DNA of 64,000 nt, taken from Alphaproteobacteria bacterium. Lineage in GTDB: Bacteria > Pseudomonadota > Alphaproteobacteria > Sphingomonadales > Sphingomonadaceae. Of the stretch, positions 26,055 to 34,212 are shown piece by piece. The notes under the pieces were generated by a model. That model did not search any database and was not told where the DNA came from. It saw only the letters and a list, made by a program, of their open reading frames with translations. The DNA is taken from the NCBI GenBank assembly GCA_005883305.1, contig VBAC01000001.1, positions 1 through 64,000 on the forward strand, read 5' to 3'. The position numbers and the translations under genes were made by a program. Positions within the stretch are counted from its first letter, which is position 1, and each line of letters starts with the position of its first letter.

Positions 26055-27023
<969 letters not shown>

Positions 27024-27028
27024 ACCTG

Positions 27029-27111
27029 CTCCCCGGCGAAGGCCGGGGCCCAGGCGGCGCTATCGCGCCGCTCTTTGTTTTAGGACTGGACCCCGGCCTT
27101 CGCCGGGGAAC
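27029..27111. repeat. Palindromic repeat pair between mdh and sucD
   Basis: CCCCGGCGAAGGCCGGGG (27031-27048) and its inverse CCCCGGCCTTCGCCGGGG (27091-27108) bracket an inner GGCGGCGCTATCGCGCCG hairpin. The ribosome site of sucD (GAAGGA) follows at once. Confidence 0.92.
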
Positions 27112-27124
27112 GTGAAGGACAGGC

Positions 27125-28009
27125 ATGAGCATTCTTGTCGATCGGAACACCAAGGTGATCACCCAGGGGATGACCGGCGAGACCGGCACTTTCCATACCG
27201 AGCAGGCGCTGGCCTACGGGACGAAGATGGTCGCCGGCGTGACGCCCGGCAAAGGCGGGCAGACCCATATCGGGCTGCCGGTCTACGACACCGTCGCCGA
27301 GGCGGTCGAGGCGACCGGCGCGAGCGCCAGCGTGATCTACGTGCCGCCGCCCTTCGCCGCCGACTCCATCCTCGAGGCGATCGACGCGGAGGTGCCGCTG
27401 ATCGTCGCGATCACCGAGGGCGTTCCGGTGCTCGATATGGTCAAGGTCAAACGCGCGCTCTCGGGCTCCAGGTCGCGGCTGATCGGGCCGAACTGCCCCG
27501 GCGTGCTTACCCCGAACGAGTGCAAGATCGGGATCATGCCCGGATCGATCTTCAGGAAGGGCAGCGTCGGCATCGTCAGCCGCTCGGGCACGCTCACCTA
27601 TGAAGCGGTGTTCCAGACGACCAATGCGGGCCTCGGCCAGACCACCGCGGTCGGCATCGGCGGCGATCCGGTCAACGGCACCAACTTCATCGACGTGCTC
27701 GAGCTGTTCCTCGCCGACGAGGAGACCAAGTCGATCATCATGATCGGCGAGATCGGCGGCTCGGCCGAGGAGGAGGCCGCCCAGTTCCTCGCCGACGAGG
27801 CGAAGAAGGGCCGCTCCAAGCCGGTCGTCGGCTTCATCGCCGGGCGAACCGCGCCGCCGGGGCGCCGGATGGGCCATGCCGGGGCGATCGTCTCGGGCGG
27901 GCAGGGCGGCGCCGAGGACAAGATCGCGGCGATGGAGGCGGCGGGGATCCGGGTCTCGCCGAGCCCGTCGGAGCTTGGGAGCACGCTCGCAGCGCTTTTG
28001 AAGGACTAG
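27125..28009 (+). CDS. sucD: Succinyl-CoA synthetase alpha subunit
   Basis: 294 residues. Forms the CoA-binding and phospho-histidine subunit of succinyl-CoA synthetase. Seen: N-terminal CoA domain with [16 protein letters not shown] and [22 protein letters not shown], and the active histidine in [13 protein letters not shown]. Start supported by GAAGGA. Its beta partner gene sucC is absent from the window, so the two subunits are made from separate loci or sucC lies elsewhere. Confidence 0.96.
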
Positions 28010-28010
28010 T

Positions 28011-28112
28011 TCCCCGGCGTAGGCCGGGGCCCAGGAGCGCCGTGAGGCGCTTCGACTATCAGGAAGAACGTCCGGCTTTCGCCGGCCTGGGCCCCGGCCT
28101 TCGCCGGGGAAC
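28011..28112. repeat. Palindromic repeat pair upstream of the GIY-YIG gene
   Basis: Begins TTCCCCGGCGTAGGCCGGGG right after the sucD stop and ends CCCCGGCCTTCGCCGGGG. Its inner part also holds a CGTCCGGCTTTCGCCGGC half-copy. One arm differs by a single base (GTA for GAA) from the family consensus. Confidence 0.92.
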
Positions 28113-28126
28113 AAAAGGAAGGACAG

Positions 28127-28414
28127 ATGAACGGCGGCTTCGTCTACATCGTGGCCAGCCGGAAGAACGGGACGATCTATACCGGCGTGACCAGCGACCT
28201 TCCGAAACGGATATATGAGCACCGTGAGGGGTTGGTGAAGGGCTTCACGAAGGAATATGGCTGCAAATTGCTGGTGTGGTTCGAAGCGCACGACGATCTG
28301 CAGGAGGCGCGTCGCCGCGAATTGCAGATCAAGGAATGGAAACGGGCCTGGAAGATCAGGCTGATCGAGGAAGCTAACCTTGAGTGGGATGATCTCTATC
28401 CGACGCTTTTCTGA
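28127..28414 (+). CDS. GIY-YIG nuclease family protein (UPF0213-like)
   Basis: 95 residues, single GIY-YIG domain: GGFVYIVASRKNGTIYTGVT gives the paired YI/YTG strands, followed by DLPKRIYEHREG with the catalytic-type arginine and tyrosine. The glutamate typical of the family falls near KEYGCKLLVWFE. No separate DNA-binding domain, as in the small YhbQ-type proteins. It sits in the TCA operon between sucD and sucA and is flanked on both sides by inverted pairs of the same palindromic repeat. GGAAGGACAG gives a good ribosome site. Confidence 0.9.
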   Translation: MNGGFVYIVASRKNGTIYTGVTSDLPKRIYEHREGLVKGFTKEYGCKLLVWFEAHDDLQEARRRELQIKEWKRAWKIRLIEEANLEWDDLYPTLF

Positions 28415-28417
28415 GCT

Positions 28418-28524
28418 GTTCCCCGGCGAAGGCCGGGGTCCAGGAGCCGAAGGCTTTCCTATGACGTTGTGGCTTTCAAACCCGGCTGTCGCCGGGGCCC
28501 GGACCCCGGCCTTCGCCGGGGAGC
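28418..28524. repeat. Palindromic repeat pair between GIY-YIG gene and sucA
   Basis: Starts GTTCCCCGGCGAAGGCCGGGG-like at 28418 and ends CCCCGGCCTTCGCCGGGGAG at 28523. A third GTCGCCGGGGCCCGG half-copy lies inside. The GGGGAG at its end is 5 bases from the sucA ATG and is the only visible ribosome-binding sequence for that gene. Confidence 0.92.
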
Positions 28525-28527
28525 AGT

Positions 28528-31308
28528 ATGATGACTGACCAAGCCGAGGGCCCCAGCTGGGCGCGCGACGATTGGCCATTGGTCGAGCTCGACGAGGTCA
28601 ATGCCGGGCTCGATCCGACCCAGGCGACGATCCAGCGCGTGGCGGCGAAAGCGAAGGACGCCGCCGGCCCCGCCGCTTCGCAGGCCGAGATCGAGCAGGC
28701 CGCGCGGGATTCGATCGCCGCGATGATGCTGATCCGCACCTATCGGGTGCGCGGCCACCTCGCCGCCGATCTCGATCCGCTCCACCTCAGCCAGCGCGAG
28801 ATGCCGGCGGACCTGACGCCGGAGTTCCACGGCTTCGCCGGAGCCGCGCTCGACCGGCCGGTCTGGCTCGGCGGGGCGCTGGGCCTGCAGAAGGCCAGCG
28901 TGCGCGAGATCGTCGAGATCCTTCGCCGCAATTACTGTGGGCGTGTCGGCCTCGAATATATGCACATCAATGACCTCGAGGAGCGGCGCTTCCTCCAGGA
29001 GCGGATGGAGGGCAAGGACGCCGAGATCAGCTTCACCCCCGAGGGCAAGCGGTCGATCCTGACCAAGGTCGTTCAGGCCGAGCAGTGGGAGAAGTTCCTC
29101 GCCCGCAAATATGTCGGCACCAAGCGCTTCGGCCTCGATGGCGGCGAGGCGATGGTTCCGGCGCTCGAGGCGGTGATCAAATATGGCGGCCAGTACGGAG
29201 TCGCCTCGATGGTCTTCGGAATGGCCCATCGCGGCCGGCTCAACGTCCTCGCCAACGTCATGGGCAAGCCCTACCGCGCGATCTTCAGCGAGTTCGCGGG
29301 CGGCGCCGCGAACCCGGAGGACGTCGGCGGATCGGGCGACGTCAAATATCACCTCGGAACCTCCTCGGACCGCGAGTTCGACGGGATCAGGGTCCATCTC
29401 AGCCTGGTGCCCAATCCGAGCCATCTCGAGGCGGTCGATCCGGTCGTCCTCGGCAAGACCCGCGCGCAGCAGGTCGCCAAAGGCGACAGCGAGGGCGACA
29501 CGGTGCTCCCCGTGCTGCTCCACGGCGATGCGGCCTTCGCCGGGCAGGGCATCGTCGCCGAATGCCTCGGCTTTTCCGGCATCCCCGGCTATTCGACCGG
29601 CGGCTGCCTCCACTTCATCATCAACAACCAGGTGGGCTTCACCACCTCGCCCCAGTTCGGCCGCTCCTCGCCTTATCCCTCGGACGTCGCCAAGGCGATC
29701 CAGGCGCCGATCCTCCACGTCAACGGCGACGATCCCGAAGCGGTCACCTTCTGCTGCAAGCTTGCGATCGAATATCGGCAGAAGTTCAACCGCGACATCG
29801 TCATCGACATGTGGTGCTACCGGCGCTTCGGCCACAATGAGGGCGACGAGCCGAGCTTCACCCAGCCCTTGATGTACCAGGAAATCCGGCAGCACCCACC
29901 GGTCTCCGCGCTCTACGCCGCGCGGCTTGAGCCGGAAGGGGTCATCGCCAAGGGCTGGGTCGACGGCGAGGTCGCGGCCTTCACGGCCTTGCTCGAGCAG
30001 GAGTTCGAGGCGGCCAAATCCTATCTGCCGAACAAGGCCGACTGGTTCGAGGGCGCTTGGTCCGGCCTCGGCAAGCCCAAGGCGGCGATCACCGAGCGGC
30101 GCAACGTCGCCACCGGCTGCTCCGAGGAGATTCTGCGCGACGTCGGCCGGACTCTGACCACGATCCCCGAGGGGCTCCAGGTGCACAAGACGCTCGGCCG
30201 GATCGTCGACGCCCGGCGGGAGATGTTCGAGAGCGGCGCCGGATTCGACTGGGCGACGGCCGAGGCGCTCGCTTTCGGCACCTTGCTGCGCGAGAACCAT
30301 CCGGTACGCCTGTCCGGCCAGGACAGCGGCCGCGGCACCTTCAGCCAGCGCCACGCCGTCTGGGTCGATCAAAGCGACGGGCACAAATTTATCCCCCTGA
30401 CCCAGGTGGGCCCCGCCCGCTTCGAGGTGCGCGACAGCCCGCTGTCCGAATTCGGCGTGCTCGGCTTCGAATATGGCTGGTCGCTCGCCGATCCGCAGAC
30501 GCTCGTATTGTGGGAGGCGCAGTTCGGCGATTTCGCCAACGGCGCTCAGGTGATCATCGACCAGTTCATCGCCGCCGGCGAGGCCAAGTGGCTGCGCGCG
30601 TCTGGCCTCGTCCTCTTGCTTCCGCACGGCTACGAAGGGCAGGGGCCCGAGCATAGCTCGGCGCGGCCCGAGCGCTTCCTCCAGCTGTGCGCCGAGGACA
30701 ATATGCAGGTCGCCAACTGCACCACGCCGGCCAACTATTTCCACCTGCTCCGCCGTCAGATGCACCGCGATTTCCGCAAGCCTTTGGTGGTGATGACCCC
30801 CAAGTCGCTGCTTCGGAACAAGAGCGCCGTGTCGAGCCTCGGCGATTTCGCCGGGGAGAGCCACTTCATGCGCATCCTCTCCGATCCCAGCCCGCCGAAG
30901 GATTCGGACGTGAAGCGGCTGGTGCTGTGCACCGGCAAGCTCTCCTACGAGCTGATCGAGGCGCGCGACAAAGCGGGAGACGCAACCACCTCGATTGTCC
31001 GCATCGAGCAGCTCTATCCCTTCCCGGGCGAGGCCTTGCTGGCGCGGCTCAAGCGCATGACCAACCTCGAAGAGGTGATCTGGGCGCAGGAGGAGCCGCA
31101 GAATCAGGGCTATTGGGCCCATGTCGCGCCGCGCATCGAGCGCCGGCTCGGCGAGGCCGGGCTGAAGCCCAAGCGTCCCGTTTACGCCGGCCGCTCGCCC
31201 GCCGCGTCGCCGGCGACCGGTCTTGCCAAGCGCCACGCGGCGGAGCAGGCGGCCCTGATCGCCGACGCGCTCGGCCAGTCGACGACTGCACAAAGGAAAG
31301 CGAGCTAA
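28528..31308 (+). CDS. sucA: 2-oxoglutarate dehydrogenase E1 component
   Basis: 926 residues; thiamine-diphosphate enzyme that decarboxylates 2-oxoglutarate in the OGDH complex. Seen: GMAHRGRLNVLANVMGKP, HGDAAFAGQGIV, INNQVGFTTSP, the ThDP GDDPEAV region, LSGQDSGRGTFSQRH and LLPHGYEGQGPEHSS. The product starts at GPSWARDDWP. The N-terminal E2-contact segment of E. coli SucA (WLDSSYLSG...SVDANWR, about 40 residues) is not encoded. The ATG directly abuts a repeat. Stop meets the sucB ATG without a gap. Confidence 0.95.
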   Translation: MMTDQAEGPSWARDDWPLVELDEVNAGLDPTQATIQRVAAKAKDAAGPAASQAEIEQAARDSIAAMMLIRTYRVRGHLAADLDPLHLSQREMPADLTPEFHGFAGAALDRPVWLGGALGLQKASVREIVEILRRNYCGRVGLEYMHINDLEERRFLQERMEGKDAEISFTPEGKRSILTKVVQAEQWEKFLARKYVGTKRFGLDGGEAMVPALEAVIKYGGQYGVASMVFGMAHRGRLNVLANVMGKPYRAIFSEFAGGAANPEDVGGSGDVKYHLGTSSDREFDGIRVHLSLVPNPSHLEAVDPVVLGKTRAQQVAKGDSEGDTVLPVLLHGDAAFAGQGIVAECLGFSGIPGYSTGGCLHFIINNQVGFTTSPQFGRSSPYPSDVAKAIQAPILHVNGDDPEAVTFCCKLAIEYRQKFNRDIVIDMWCYRRFGHNEGDEPSFTQPLMYQEIRQHPPVSALYAARLEPEGVIAKGWVDGEVAAFTALLEQEFEAAKSYLPNKADWFEGAWSGLGKPKAAITERRNVATGCSEEILRDVGRTLTTIPEGLQVHKTLGRIVDARREMFESGAGFDWATAEALAFGTLLRENHPVRLSGQDSGRGTFSQRHAVWVDQSDGHKFIPLTQVGPARFEVRDSPLSEFGVLGFEYGWSLADPQTLVLWEAQFGDFANGAQVIIDQFIAAGEAKWLRASGLVLLLPHGYEGQGPEHSSARPERFLQLCAEDNMQVANCTTPANYFHLLRRQMHRDFRKPLVVMTPKSLLRNKSAVSSLGDFAGESHFMRILSDPSPPKDSDVKRLVLCTGKLSYELIEARDKAGDATTSIVRIEQLYPFPGEALLARLKRMTNLEEVIWAQEEPQNQGYWAHVAPRIERRLGEAGLKPKRPVYAGRSPAASPATGLAKRHAAEQAALIADALGQSTTAQRKAS

Positions 31309-32592
31309 ATGGCGACTGAAGTCAAAGTCCCGACTCTGGGCGAATCGATCACCGAGGCGACGCTCGGCGCGTGGCTCAAGCAGCCTGGCGACGCGGTCGC
31401 CCAGGACGAGCCGATCGCCAGCCTGGAGACCGACAAGGTCGCGGTCGAAGTGCCCTCGCCGGTCGCGGGCACGATGGGCGAGCAGCGTGCGGGCGTGGGC
31501 GACACGGTCGCCGTCGGAGCGGTGATCGCCACCGTGGAGGCCGGCGCCGCCGCGACTCCGGTCAACCCCCAGGGCGCGGGCGAGAATATCGCGCCGAAGG
31601 AGGCGCCGCCCGCTGCCGCTCCCGCGGAAGAGGAGGATGAGGAGGCGCCGCATCTGACGCTCTCCCCCGCGGTGCGCCGGATCGTGCTCGAGCACCATCT
31701 CGATCCGTCTAAGATCAAGGGCACCGGCAAGGACGGCCGCCTGACCAAGGACGACGTGCTTGCCGCCGCCGAGAGCCAGGAAAATGGTTCCCCGGCGAAG
31801 GCCGGGGCCCAGGCGCCGCAGGCGGAAGCCCCGTCGGCTCCGCAAGCCGCGCCCGCGCCAACCAGGGCCTCGACCCCGGCCTCCGCCGGGGAACGGCGCG
31901 AGGAGCGCGTCCGCATGACCCGCCTCCGCCAGACGATCGCCAAGCGGCTCAAGGAGGCGCAGAACACCGCCGCCCTGCTGACGACGTTCAACGACGTCGA
32001 CATGACCGAGATCATGGCCGCGCGAAGCCGCTACAAGGATTTGTTCGAGAAGAAGCACGGAATCCGCTTGGGCTTCATGGGCTTCTTCGTGAAGGCCGCC
32101 GCGCTCGCCGCGCGCGACGTTCCCGCGGTCAACGCGTCGATCGACGGCGAGGAGATCGTCTATCACGATTATATGGACGTATCGGTCGCTGTCTCCGCGC
32201 CCAACGGCCTCGTCGTCCCCGTCCTCCGCGACGCGCAAGGCCTGAGCTTCGCCGAAATCGAGAAGAGGATCGCCGACTTCGGCAAGCGCGCGAAGGACGG
32301 CACCCTGAAGATCGAGGAGATGCAGGGCGGGACCTTCACCATCTCCAACGGCGGCGTGTTCGGCTCGCTCCTTTCGACCCCGATCATCAACCCGCCGCAG
32401 AGCGCGGTGCTCGGAATGCACCGGATCGAGGAGCGCCCGGTCGTCCGCGACGGCCAGATCGTCGCCCGGCCGATGATGTACCTCGCGCTCAGCTACGACC
32501 ACCGCCTGGTCGACGGCCGCGAGGCGGTCACCTTCCTCGTGCGGATGAAAGAGGCGCTGGAAGACCCGACGCGGTTGCTGATCGATTTGTGA
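31309..32592 (+). CDS. sucB: Dihydrolipoyl succinyltransferase (OGDH E2)
   Basis: 427 residues. Domains: lipoyl domain (1-77) with lipoyl-lysine in ETDKVAVEV (Lys43), Ala/Pro linker, E1/E3-binding domain (about 113-150, [21 protein letters not shown]), second linker, then the catalytic domain (about 200-427) ending with [10 protein letters not shown], which holds the active histidine. The second linker is unusually long because about 36 residues ([10 protein letters not shown]... to ...[10 protein letters not shown]) are translated from an inverted pair of the intergenic repeat. Directly downstream of sucA. Confidence 0.96.
31788..31894. repeat. Palindromic repeat pair translated inside sucB linker
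   Basis: Left arm TTCCCCGGCGAAGGCCGGGG (31788-31807) and right arm ACCCCGGCCTCCGCCGGGGA (31873-31892) in inverted orientation, 65 bases apart, wholly in frame within sucB. Encodes a flexible Ala/Pro/Ser/Gly segment. Confidence 0.9.
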
Positions 32593-32604
32593 GAAGAAAA
32601 ATTG

Positions 32605-32710
32605 TGCTCCGGCGAAGGCCGGAGCGCTGGATGGAGCGCGATGCGACCGGGAGAGAAAACCCTCGTCCAATTGCGCGGGTGGCCAACGCTCCGGCCTTCG
32701 CCGGAGCACC
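32605..32710. repeat. Palindromic repeat pair between sucB and lpdA
   Basis: Variant of the same family: GCTCCGGCGAAGGCCGGAGC (32606-32625) and its inverse GCTCCGGCCTTCGCCGGAGC (32688-32707), with a less-ordered middle. Both arms changed together (CCCC to CTCC), keeping the hairpin. Confidence 0.9.
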
Positions 32711-32722
32711 AAAGGATAGAAA

Positions 32723-34120
<1,398 letters not shown>

Positions 34121-34139: not shown

Positions 34140-34212
34140 CGTCATTCCCGCGAAAGCGGGAATCCCGCTGCTCTTCGGAAGAAGCTGGACCCCCGCTTTC
34201 GCGGGGGTGACG
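34140..34212. repeat. Intergenic repeat of GTCATTCCCGCGAAAGCGGGAAT type
   Basis: GTCATTCCCGCGAAAGCGGG (34141-34160) and the inverse arm CCCGCTTTCGCGGGGGTGAC (34193-34212). A common dispersed proteobacterial repeat family. Downstream of lpdA, it may end the TCA transcript or be read through. Confidence 0.88.

Follow-up and report, generated by a model that had tools for sequence, protein, structure and literature searches.

A single-domain GIY-YIG nuclease gene between palindromic repeat dimers in a sphingomonad mdh-sucD-sucA-sucB-lpd operon, and the pairing of its relatives with their own REP families

The DNA analyzed here (hereafter the window) is a stretch of 64,000 nucleotides, in which a short gene for a GIY-YIG nuclease lies between sucD, which ends at 28009, and sucA, whose ATG is at 28528. 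According to the open reading frame list, the gene occupies positions 28127-28414 of the + strand (ATG at 28127, stop ending at 28414) and encodes 95 amino acids, and its product, hereafter paralogue A, has GIY-YIG as its sole Pfam domain (PF01541; E 3e-16, residues 4-77). On each side, the gene is bordered by a head-to-head dimer of the same REP element. The upstream dimer (28009-28112) consists of a REP at 28009-28035 (+), an inner hairpin AGCGCCGTGAGGCGCT, a spacer, a second inner hairpin CCGGCTTTCGCCGG and a REP at 28086-28112 (-); the inverted pair 28009-28035 / 28086-28112 is 96% complementary, with 50 nt between its arms. The downstream dimer (28416-28526) has the order REP 28418-28444 (+), inner hairpin AGCCGAAGGCT, spacer, inner hairpin and REP 28498-28524 (-); here the inverted pair 28416-28449 / 28493-28526 is 88% complementary, its arms are 43 nt apart, and the edge of the dimer directly precedes the sucA start codon. 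An earlier note on this DNA had described a single-domain GIY-YIG gene in the sucD-sucA spacer between two inverted pairs of one element that recurs across the operon, and the open reading frame, the Pfam match and the repeat coordinates all agree with this description.

The same repeat family (A family) was also found away from the nuclease gene. A solitary, gene-less dimer is located in the mdh/sucD gap (27028-27111), a second solitary dimer lies inside the sucB coding frame (31787-31894, apparently in an inter-domain linker), and a third, with the stem variant GTGCTCCGGCGAAGGCCGGAGC changed on both stem sides, occupies the sucB-lpd gap (32604-32709). A single REP was present outside the operon (2440-2460, +), adjoining a coding sequence that by eye resembles a DNA ligase gene. 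An A-family dimer typically began with GTTCCCCGGCGAAGGCCGGGGYCCAGG and a small inner hairpin, followed by a spacer that varies, in many cases a second inner hairpin, and the inverted REP. Chance palindromes were ruled out by two controls: an 18-mer with up to three mismatches matched the window 14 times, one site being scored on each strand, versus 0.79 expected, with 0 of 100 shuffles reaching 14, and the A-family core with up to two mismatches gave 98 + 96 matches genome-wide versus 2 + 0 for the reversed-pattern control. After lpd, at 34140-34212, we also observed an inverted pair of CGTCATTCCCGCGAAAGCGGG-type repeats, which are of the kind that flanks paralogue C (see below).

With regard to the enzyme, the invariant columns of a 23-row alignment include Y7, G15, Y18, G20, T22, R28, H32, E65, R73, K76 and N84, among which we take Y7, Y18, R28, E65 and N84 to be the catalytic residues of the GIY-YIG domain. 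Foldseek analysis of a structure model of paralogue A (mean pLDDT 94) gave UPF0213 protein BH0048 (E 7.6e-5), then Slx1 (0.037), which is a nuclease of branched DNA, and the UvrC N-domain (0.37). The UPF0213 GIY-YIG proteins (1zg2, 1ywl) are the nearest solved sequences and among the nearest folds, a relation of sequence and fold alone. The nuclease is under purifying selection, with dN/dS of ~0.11 versus L196 and ~0.07 versus L197 at dS values near saturation (1.25 and 1.66, respectively), and of 0.03-0.17 in six closer pairs. A GIY-YIG homing endonuclease sitting in its own coding or intron target was considered and ruled out: the sucD and sucA frames are complete, the gene is flanked by REPs, and the 95 residues contain no further Pfam domain.

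Comparison of the sucD-sucA interval in relatives, which the earlier note had proposed as a way of finding a site of precise presence or absence, was informative in part. The nuclease was absent from this interval in all 23 other same-genus loci in which both genes were readable (24 other loci examined), and a precise empty site was not obtained among same-genus loci because their spacers are too diverged for alignment. In two loci (L150 and L159), other REP dimers were seen by eye in the sucD-sucA spacer.

A protein search of the window's genome revealed four loci matching the nuclease, each with a different repeat family. Inspection by eye showed that paralogue B (L002) is flanked on either side by inverted pairs of CGTCATTGCGAGCG..GCGAAGCAATCCAG, that paralogue C (L003) is enclosed by one inverted pair CGTCATTCCCGCG..GCGGGAAT, and that paralogue D (L004) sits amid GTTCGTGTCGAGCGAAGTCGAG-type repeats. 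Paralogue D (L004:1486 onward; G000:C1:1086782) is a single open frame of 462 amino acids that continues past the domain through the repeats.

The association of nuclease genes with inverted repeats was then quantified in a family sample of 59 genomes, 44 of which had a match to the window protein at E 1e-6, and 113 loci were read. Flanks were scored as matching when the 200-nt stretches to the left and right of the gene reached an inverted similarity of 14 or more. By this criterion, matching inverted flanks were found in 96 of the 113 loci (A 32/38, B 8/11, C 33/38 and D 23/26, grouped by best query), versus 8.3% of 314 mismatched pairs of flanks from the same genome and 10.0% of 2923 mismatched pairs from other genomes; of 230 pseudo-genes in 115 of the longer loci, none passed. 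Six of the 17 loci without a flank match still hold a hairpin repeat in a flank. When the window was scanned at 50-nt steps, 21 of 1266 places passed the criterion, four of them at the nuclease gene. A second set of 107 loci came from a phylum sample, in which 89 of 299 genomes had a match at 1e-8, and, with a single-protein query, from named genomes (the best 80 of 171 relatives); six loci were dropped for short flanks, and 80 of the 101 tested had matching flanks, versus 9.0% of 3000 mismatched pairs. General repeat clutter was ruled out by the same-genome mismatched flanks and the pseudo-genes. A paralogue D query detected D-group genes missed by the first query in G006, G043, G046 and G053, and these four loci are outside the 113.

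As for genomic location, all seven A-clade loci of the family sample (the window plus L035, L036, L037, L040, L045 and L113; support 86) were found in the mdh-sucD-sucA-sucB-lpd operon (26061-34120 in the window), in differing gaps. This operon also hosts the named loci L174, L197, L198, L199 and L203, but not L196 or L200, and a separate nuclease clade (L059, L070 and L074) is likewise located in it.

The pairing between nuclease and repeat is specific. Across genomes, protein identity correlated with repeat similarity (rho 0.271, 96 loci), a value reached by 0 of 2000 within-genome repeat shuffles. The same correlation was observed after removal of group D (rho 0.303; 0 of 2000 shuffles) and within group D alone (rho 0.427; 23 of 2000 shuffles). 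On a tree of the 113 proteins, which is based on a short alignment and leaves 61 of 110 inner branches open, the repeat classes needed 31 changes versus 79.7 when shuffled, with 0 of 200 shuffles as low, and repeat class B corresponded to one branch (support 97). The genome comparison shows that a given kind of nuclease tends to stay with one kind of repeat, and suggests that such nucleases are the enzyme partner that a large class of bacterial repeats had seemed to lack.

Copy number also tracked the cognate nuclease. Copies of five repeat families (A, B, T, D2 and S) were tallied across the 59 genomes of the family sample; classes A and B are tree branches, and the labels of classes T, D2 and S derive from the flanks of the nuclease genes themselves and are therefore not independent of the loci. 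Median copy numbers with and without the cognate nuclease were 30 and 0 for A (7 and 52 genomes; one-sided rank p 2.5e-6, as for the tests that follow), 30 and 0 for B (7 and 52 genomes; p 3.3e-7), 13 and 0 for T (15 and 44 genomes; p 2.1e-6), 54 and 2 for D2 (11 and 48 genomes; p 7.5e-6), and 11 and 2 for S (14 and 45 genomes; p 3.8e-4). When four own-locus copies were subtracted, the p values became 1.1e-4 (A), 2.6e-5 (B), 1.7e-3 (T), 1.3e-4 (D2) and 0.042 (S), and at a threshold of at least 10 copies the S family was present in 4 of 14 genomes with the cognate nuclease versus 7 of 45 without it (p 0.24). Once the effects of genome and family had been taken out, the cognate excess amounted to 1.60 log2 units, which 0 of 5000 within-genome shuffles reached.

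Individual genomes were examined for the extremes of this relationship. All ten genomes with at least 30 D2 matches hold a D-group nuclease; G025 (65 D2) and G009 (32 D2), which had been scored as lacking a D2 nuclease, both hold a D-group nuclease with flanks labelled D1. The D2-richest genomes without a D match at 1e-10 were G049 (20), G003 (17) and G013 (12). None of the five patterns matched more than 17 times in any of the 15 genomes without a nuclease match at E 1e-6, and one of these genomes, G043, has a D-group gene detected by the paralogue D query. Repeats without their cognate class were observed in G025 (71 S-type), G018 (31 B-type) and G049, a genome of the same genus with 94 A-type matches of mixed stem types and no A-clade nuclease; nucleases with few repeats were found in three genomes with 3, 5 and 9 A-type copies. 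It is possible that the A-type repeats of G049 are a relic population after loss of the enzyme.

The earlier note had proposed a partnership between the nuclease and this repeat family, in which the enzyme may cut at or move the repeat, had offered as an alternative that both merely gather in intergenic spaces, and had suggested a survey of co-occurrence in which the lack of any correlated pattern would count against the proposal. In the 59 genomes, nuclease class and repeat count were correlated. The proposed partnership is strongly supported, as flank matching, covariation and cognate copy number all hold against same-genome controls, and the same controls contradict the intergenic alternative. 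The interpretation as a whole is partly supported, since cutting or movement of the repeat by the enzyme is inferred.

The REP-gene-REP block can relocate as a unit. The basic unit, REP(+)-nuclease-REP(-), is ~360-410 bp long and its repeats point outward. Among 2440 between-locus matches that cover the gene and are shorter than 620 nt, which are not mutually independent, 105 end no more than 15 nt from the outer edges of both repeats; most of the remaining matches stop within the unit, and overruns of more than 15 nt were seen at 10 left and 7 right ends. On the other hand, 194 locus pairs (45 of them within the family sample) share at least 620 nt, and many copies have therefore been inherited in place. 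In G018, three copies of a 458-464 nt block that are 96.1-99.8% identical were found in three places and contexts; the block extends past the repeats by ~27 and 46 nt instead of stopping at their edges, and two of the three copies look broken, with similarity to residues 2-67 only in one frame. Two close relatives of the window protein, L197 at sucD-sucA and L196 elsewhere, are both accompanied by the same REP sequence. By eye, the copies of a ~33-nt imperfect direct repeat, similar to the upstream gene at its 3' end, enclose the L196 unit (L196:1440-1900), and this was the one suggestive case of a target-site duplication.

To relate solitary dimers to these units, 23 distinct A-family dimers from the window and 30 own-genome loci were read. 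An AGCC-type inner hairpin was located beside the REP in 15 of them (seven being AGCCGAAGGCT itself) and a CCGG-type hairpin in 11, and similar hairpins were seen by eye between REP and gene in the units L196 and L197. Since these inner hairpins are common to solitary dimers and units, the dimers are suggested to be units minus the gene. Thus, solitary head-to-head REP dimers are probably the gene-less form of the unit, a conclusion that rests on the A family, the picture in the T family not being clear.

The hairpin itself is conserved in the T family, for which 20 dimers chosen for intact cores (L276-L295) were analyzed. Two variable stem pairs outside the core were Watson-Crick in 78 of 80 cells, and the two arms differed at these pairs in all 20 dimers, with each arm itself forming a paired hairpin; the outermost stem pair was Watson-Crick in just 31 of 40 copies. 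Pairing is thus maintained inside each hairpin but not from arm to arm, a pattern consistent with a folded single strand being recognized. These dimers perhaps avoid perfect long inverted repeats.

Many of the partner repeats could be assigned to a described superfamily. Of the 73 elements in groups A-C, 51 carried a CGTC or TGTC tag at the outer edge, versus 5 in a reversed-string control; the corresponding counts were 53 of 80 elements for a wider set (control 10) and 5 of 23 elements for group D (control 1); a looser count for the wider set (68/80) was set aside because chance alone would yield many such tags. On the basis of these outer-edge counts, many partner repeats qualify as CGTC REPs as described by Di Nocera 2013 (PMC3733652), having the tag, the hairpin stem, the tail and head-to-head dimers. 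The window's own family shares the hairpin, a CCA-like tail and head-to-head dimers, but differs in its tag: CGTC/TGTC was found at the outer edge in 0 of 6 elements of the window's A class, and GTTC, GCTC or GTGC was present instead. According to the available part of that article, CGTC REPs occur in five phyla, are prevalent in alphaproteobacteria (including two named sphingomonads) and 'apparently lack a dedicated transposase', the enzyme that multiplies them, if any, being left open; CGTC-1 of Neisseriae is equated there with dRS3 (PMC3733652). Whereas that part of the article associates no transposase with CGTC REPs, a GIY-YIG nuclease is associated with them here. Among the matches listed in our literature search, no paper linked GIY-YIG nucleases with REPs, and the available part of PMC12306157 names no nuclease.

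The best reading of these observations is by analogy: the nuclease/REP pair would work like RAYT/REPIN (REPtron) with an unrelated enzyme. Both systems have an enzyme gene flanked by REPs, repeat-specific enzymes, solitary inverted REP dimers and more repeats where the enzyme is present. They differ in the enzyme, which here has only a GIY-YIG domain in Pfam and no HUH tyrosine transposase, and in the tags, which are GTAG there and CGTC-like here, or GTTC/GTGC (GTKC) in the window's family. In the available part of PMC3733652, the RAYT is an IS200/IS605-type tyrosine transposase linked to GTAG tags.

In the mechanism that we propose, one small GIY-YIG nuclease would pair with one specific hairpin REP family, CGTC-tagged in many lineages. 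The enzyme would recognize its cognate REP when this is single-stranded and folded, a state that arises in replication or DNA uptake, and would nick it at the outer end; the replication and recombination machinery of the host would then copy or join the released REP-bounded piece elsewhere. The enzyme would thus keep its own repeat family populated, as has been proposed for RAYT transposases with GTAG REPs. GIY-YIG enzymes are not known to join DNA, and the joining step is therefore without an assigned enzyme. Recognition and cutting of the cognate hairpin by the enzyme are likely, and the chances that the enzyme spreads the repeats appear about evenly balanced. As a whole, we consider it fairly probable that the gene and its flanking palindromes belong to a widespread nuclease/REP system, based on pairing and with putative cleavage and enzyme-driven spread. 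A more general model, which might equally turn out right or wrong, is that CGTC REPs and related repeats without the tag owe their dispersal to small GIY-YIG nucleases, which would fill the place of the missing enzyme. Each REP-nuclease-REP unit would then be a minimal mobile element that acts on single-stranded hairpins without a classical transposase, solitary dimers would be gene-less derivatives of such units, and nuclease and repeat would co-diversify into separate specificities within one genome.

A related enzyme family may already have been described. In 2025, Chenal, Veyrier and colleagues reportedly characterized Ssn, a GIY-YIG family that cuts single-stranded DNA at specific sequences; the target is said to be repeated hundreds of times in Neisseria, with an effect on transformation, and homologues are said to have their own corresponding sequences. 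Ssn would thus combine a small GIY-YIG enzyme, a target sequence in many copies and homologues with their own sequences, and the window nuclease likewise has a single GIY-YIG domain with intact residues and a repeat that is present in many copies as well as around the gene. If Ssn is as reported, the enzyme of the window would most likely be a member, and we consider that it probably belongs to these nucleases. Hence the suggestion of the earlier note that this would be a repeat-nuclease system not yet known is probably not right. Ssn has reportedly been described for cleavage specificity and transformation, whereas the present analysis would add the pairing with REPs paralogue by paralogue, the copy-number link and a relocating unit with probable gene-less forms.

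Such a function points to a different explanation, which we regard as possible although rather doubtful: the nuclease would control DNA uptake by cutting incoming single-stranded DNA at the repeat and shaping which chromosome segments recombine, and the repeats would mark favored genes and be spread by recombination. This explanation is compatible with the pairing and conflicts only with enzyme-driven spread. The repeated target of Ssn in Neisseria reportedly modulates transformation, purifying selection (dN/dS 0.03-0.17 in the six close pairs) fits a host function, and the ~33-nt imperfect direct repeat seen by eye at L196 is what recombination of imported DNA might leave. The equation of CGTC-1 of Neisseriae with dRS3 in Di Nocera 2013 (PMC3733652, available part) is also in line with it. 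However, uptake control alone leaves unexplained the gene-less dimers, the relocation of units with ends at the repeat edges, and the near-identical blocks amplified in one genome.

Regulation in cis is unlikely. Under this hypothesis, the nuclease or its mRNA would be autoregulated via the flanking hairpins, and scattered copies would bring other genes under the same control; in line with this, many loci have a distance of ~20-30 nt from the end of the repeat to the inferred start codon and a repeat near the stop, and in the window a REP edge is placed directly before the sucA start, but neither an increased number of repeats in enzyme-holding genomes nor co-relocation as a unit would be predicted. 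Finally, it is highly improbable that the gene is a mere passenger, that is, a general repair nuclease (a role that would suit the UPF0213-like and Slx1-like folds) among REPs that gather downstream of any gene as terminators or mRNA-stability hairpins, REPs being known in intergenic spaces and as RNA hairpins (PMC3733652, available part), since mismatched flanks from the same genome rarely match and pseudo-genes never do, nuclease kinship predicts the repeat family within genomes, and copy number tracks the cognate class.

Returning to the preferred reading of a nuclease paired with its own REP family, the pairing names a candidate enzyme for each repeat family examined, which bears on the gap described in Di Nocera 2013, and it brings the question of CGTC REPs within reach of tests that need only short oligonucleotides and small proteins. 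Should dispersal of the repeats be due to the enzyme, bacteria would have a second and independent means of housing REP populations, and these proteins would provide a natural set of nucleases with distinct hairpin specificities.
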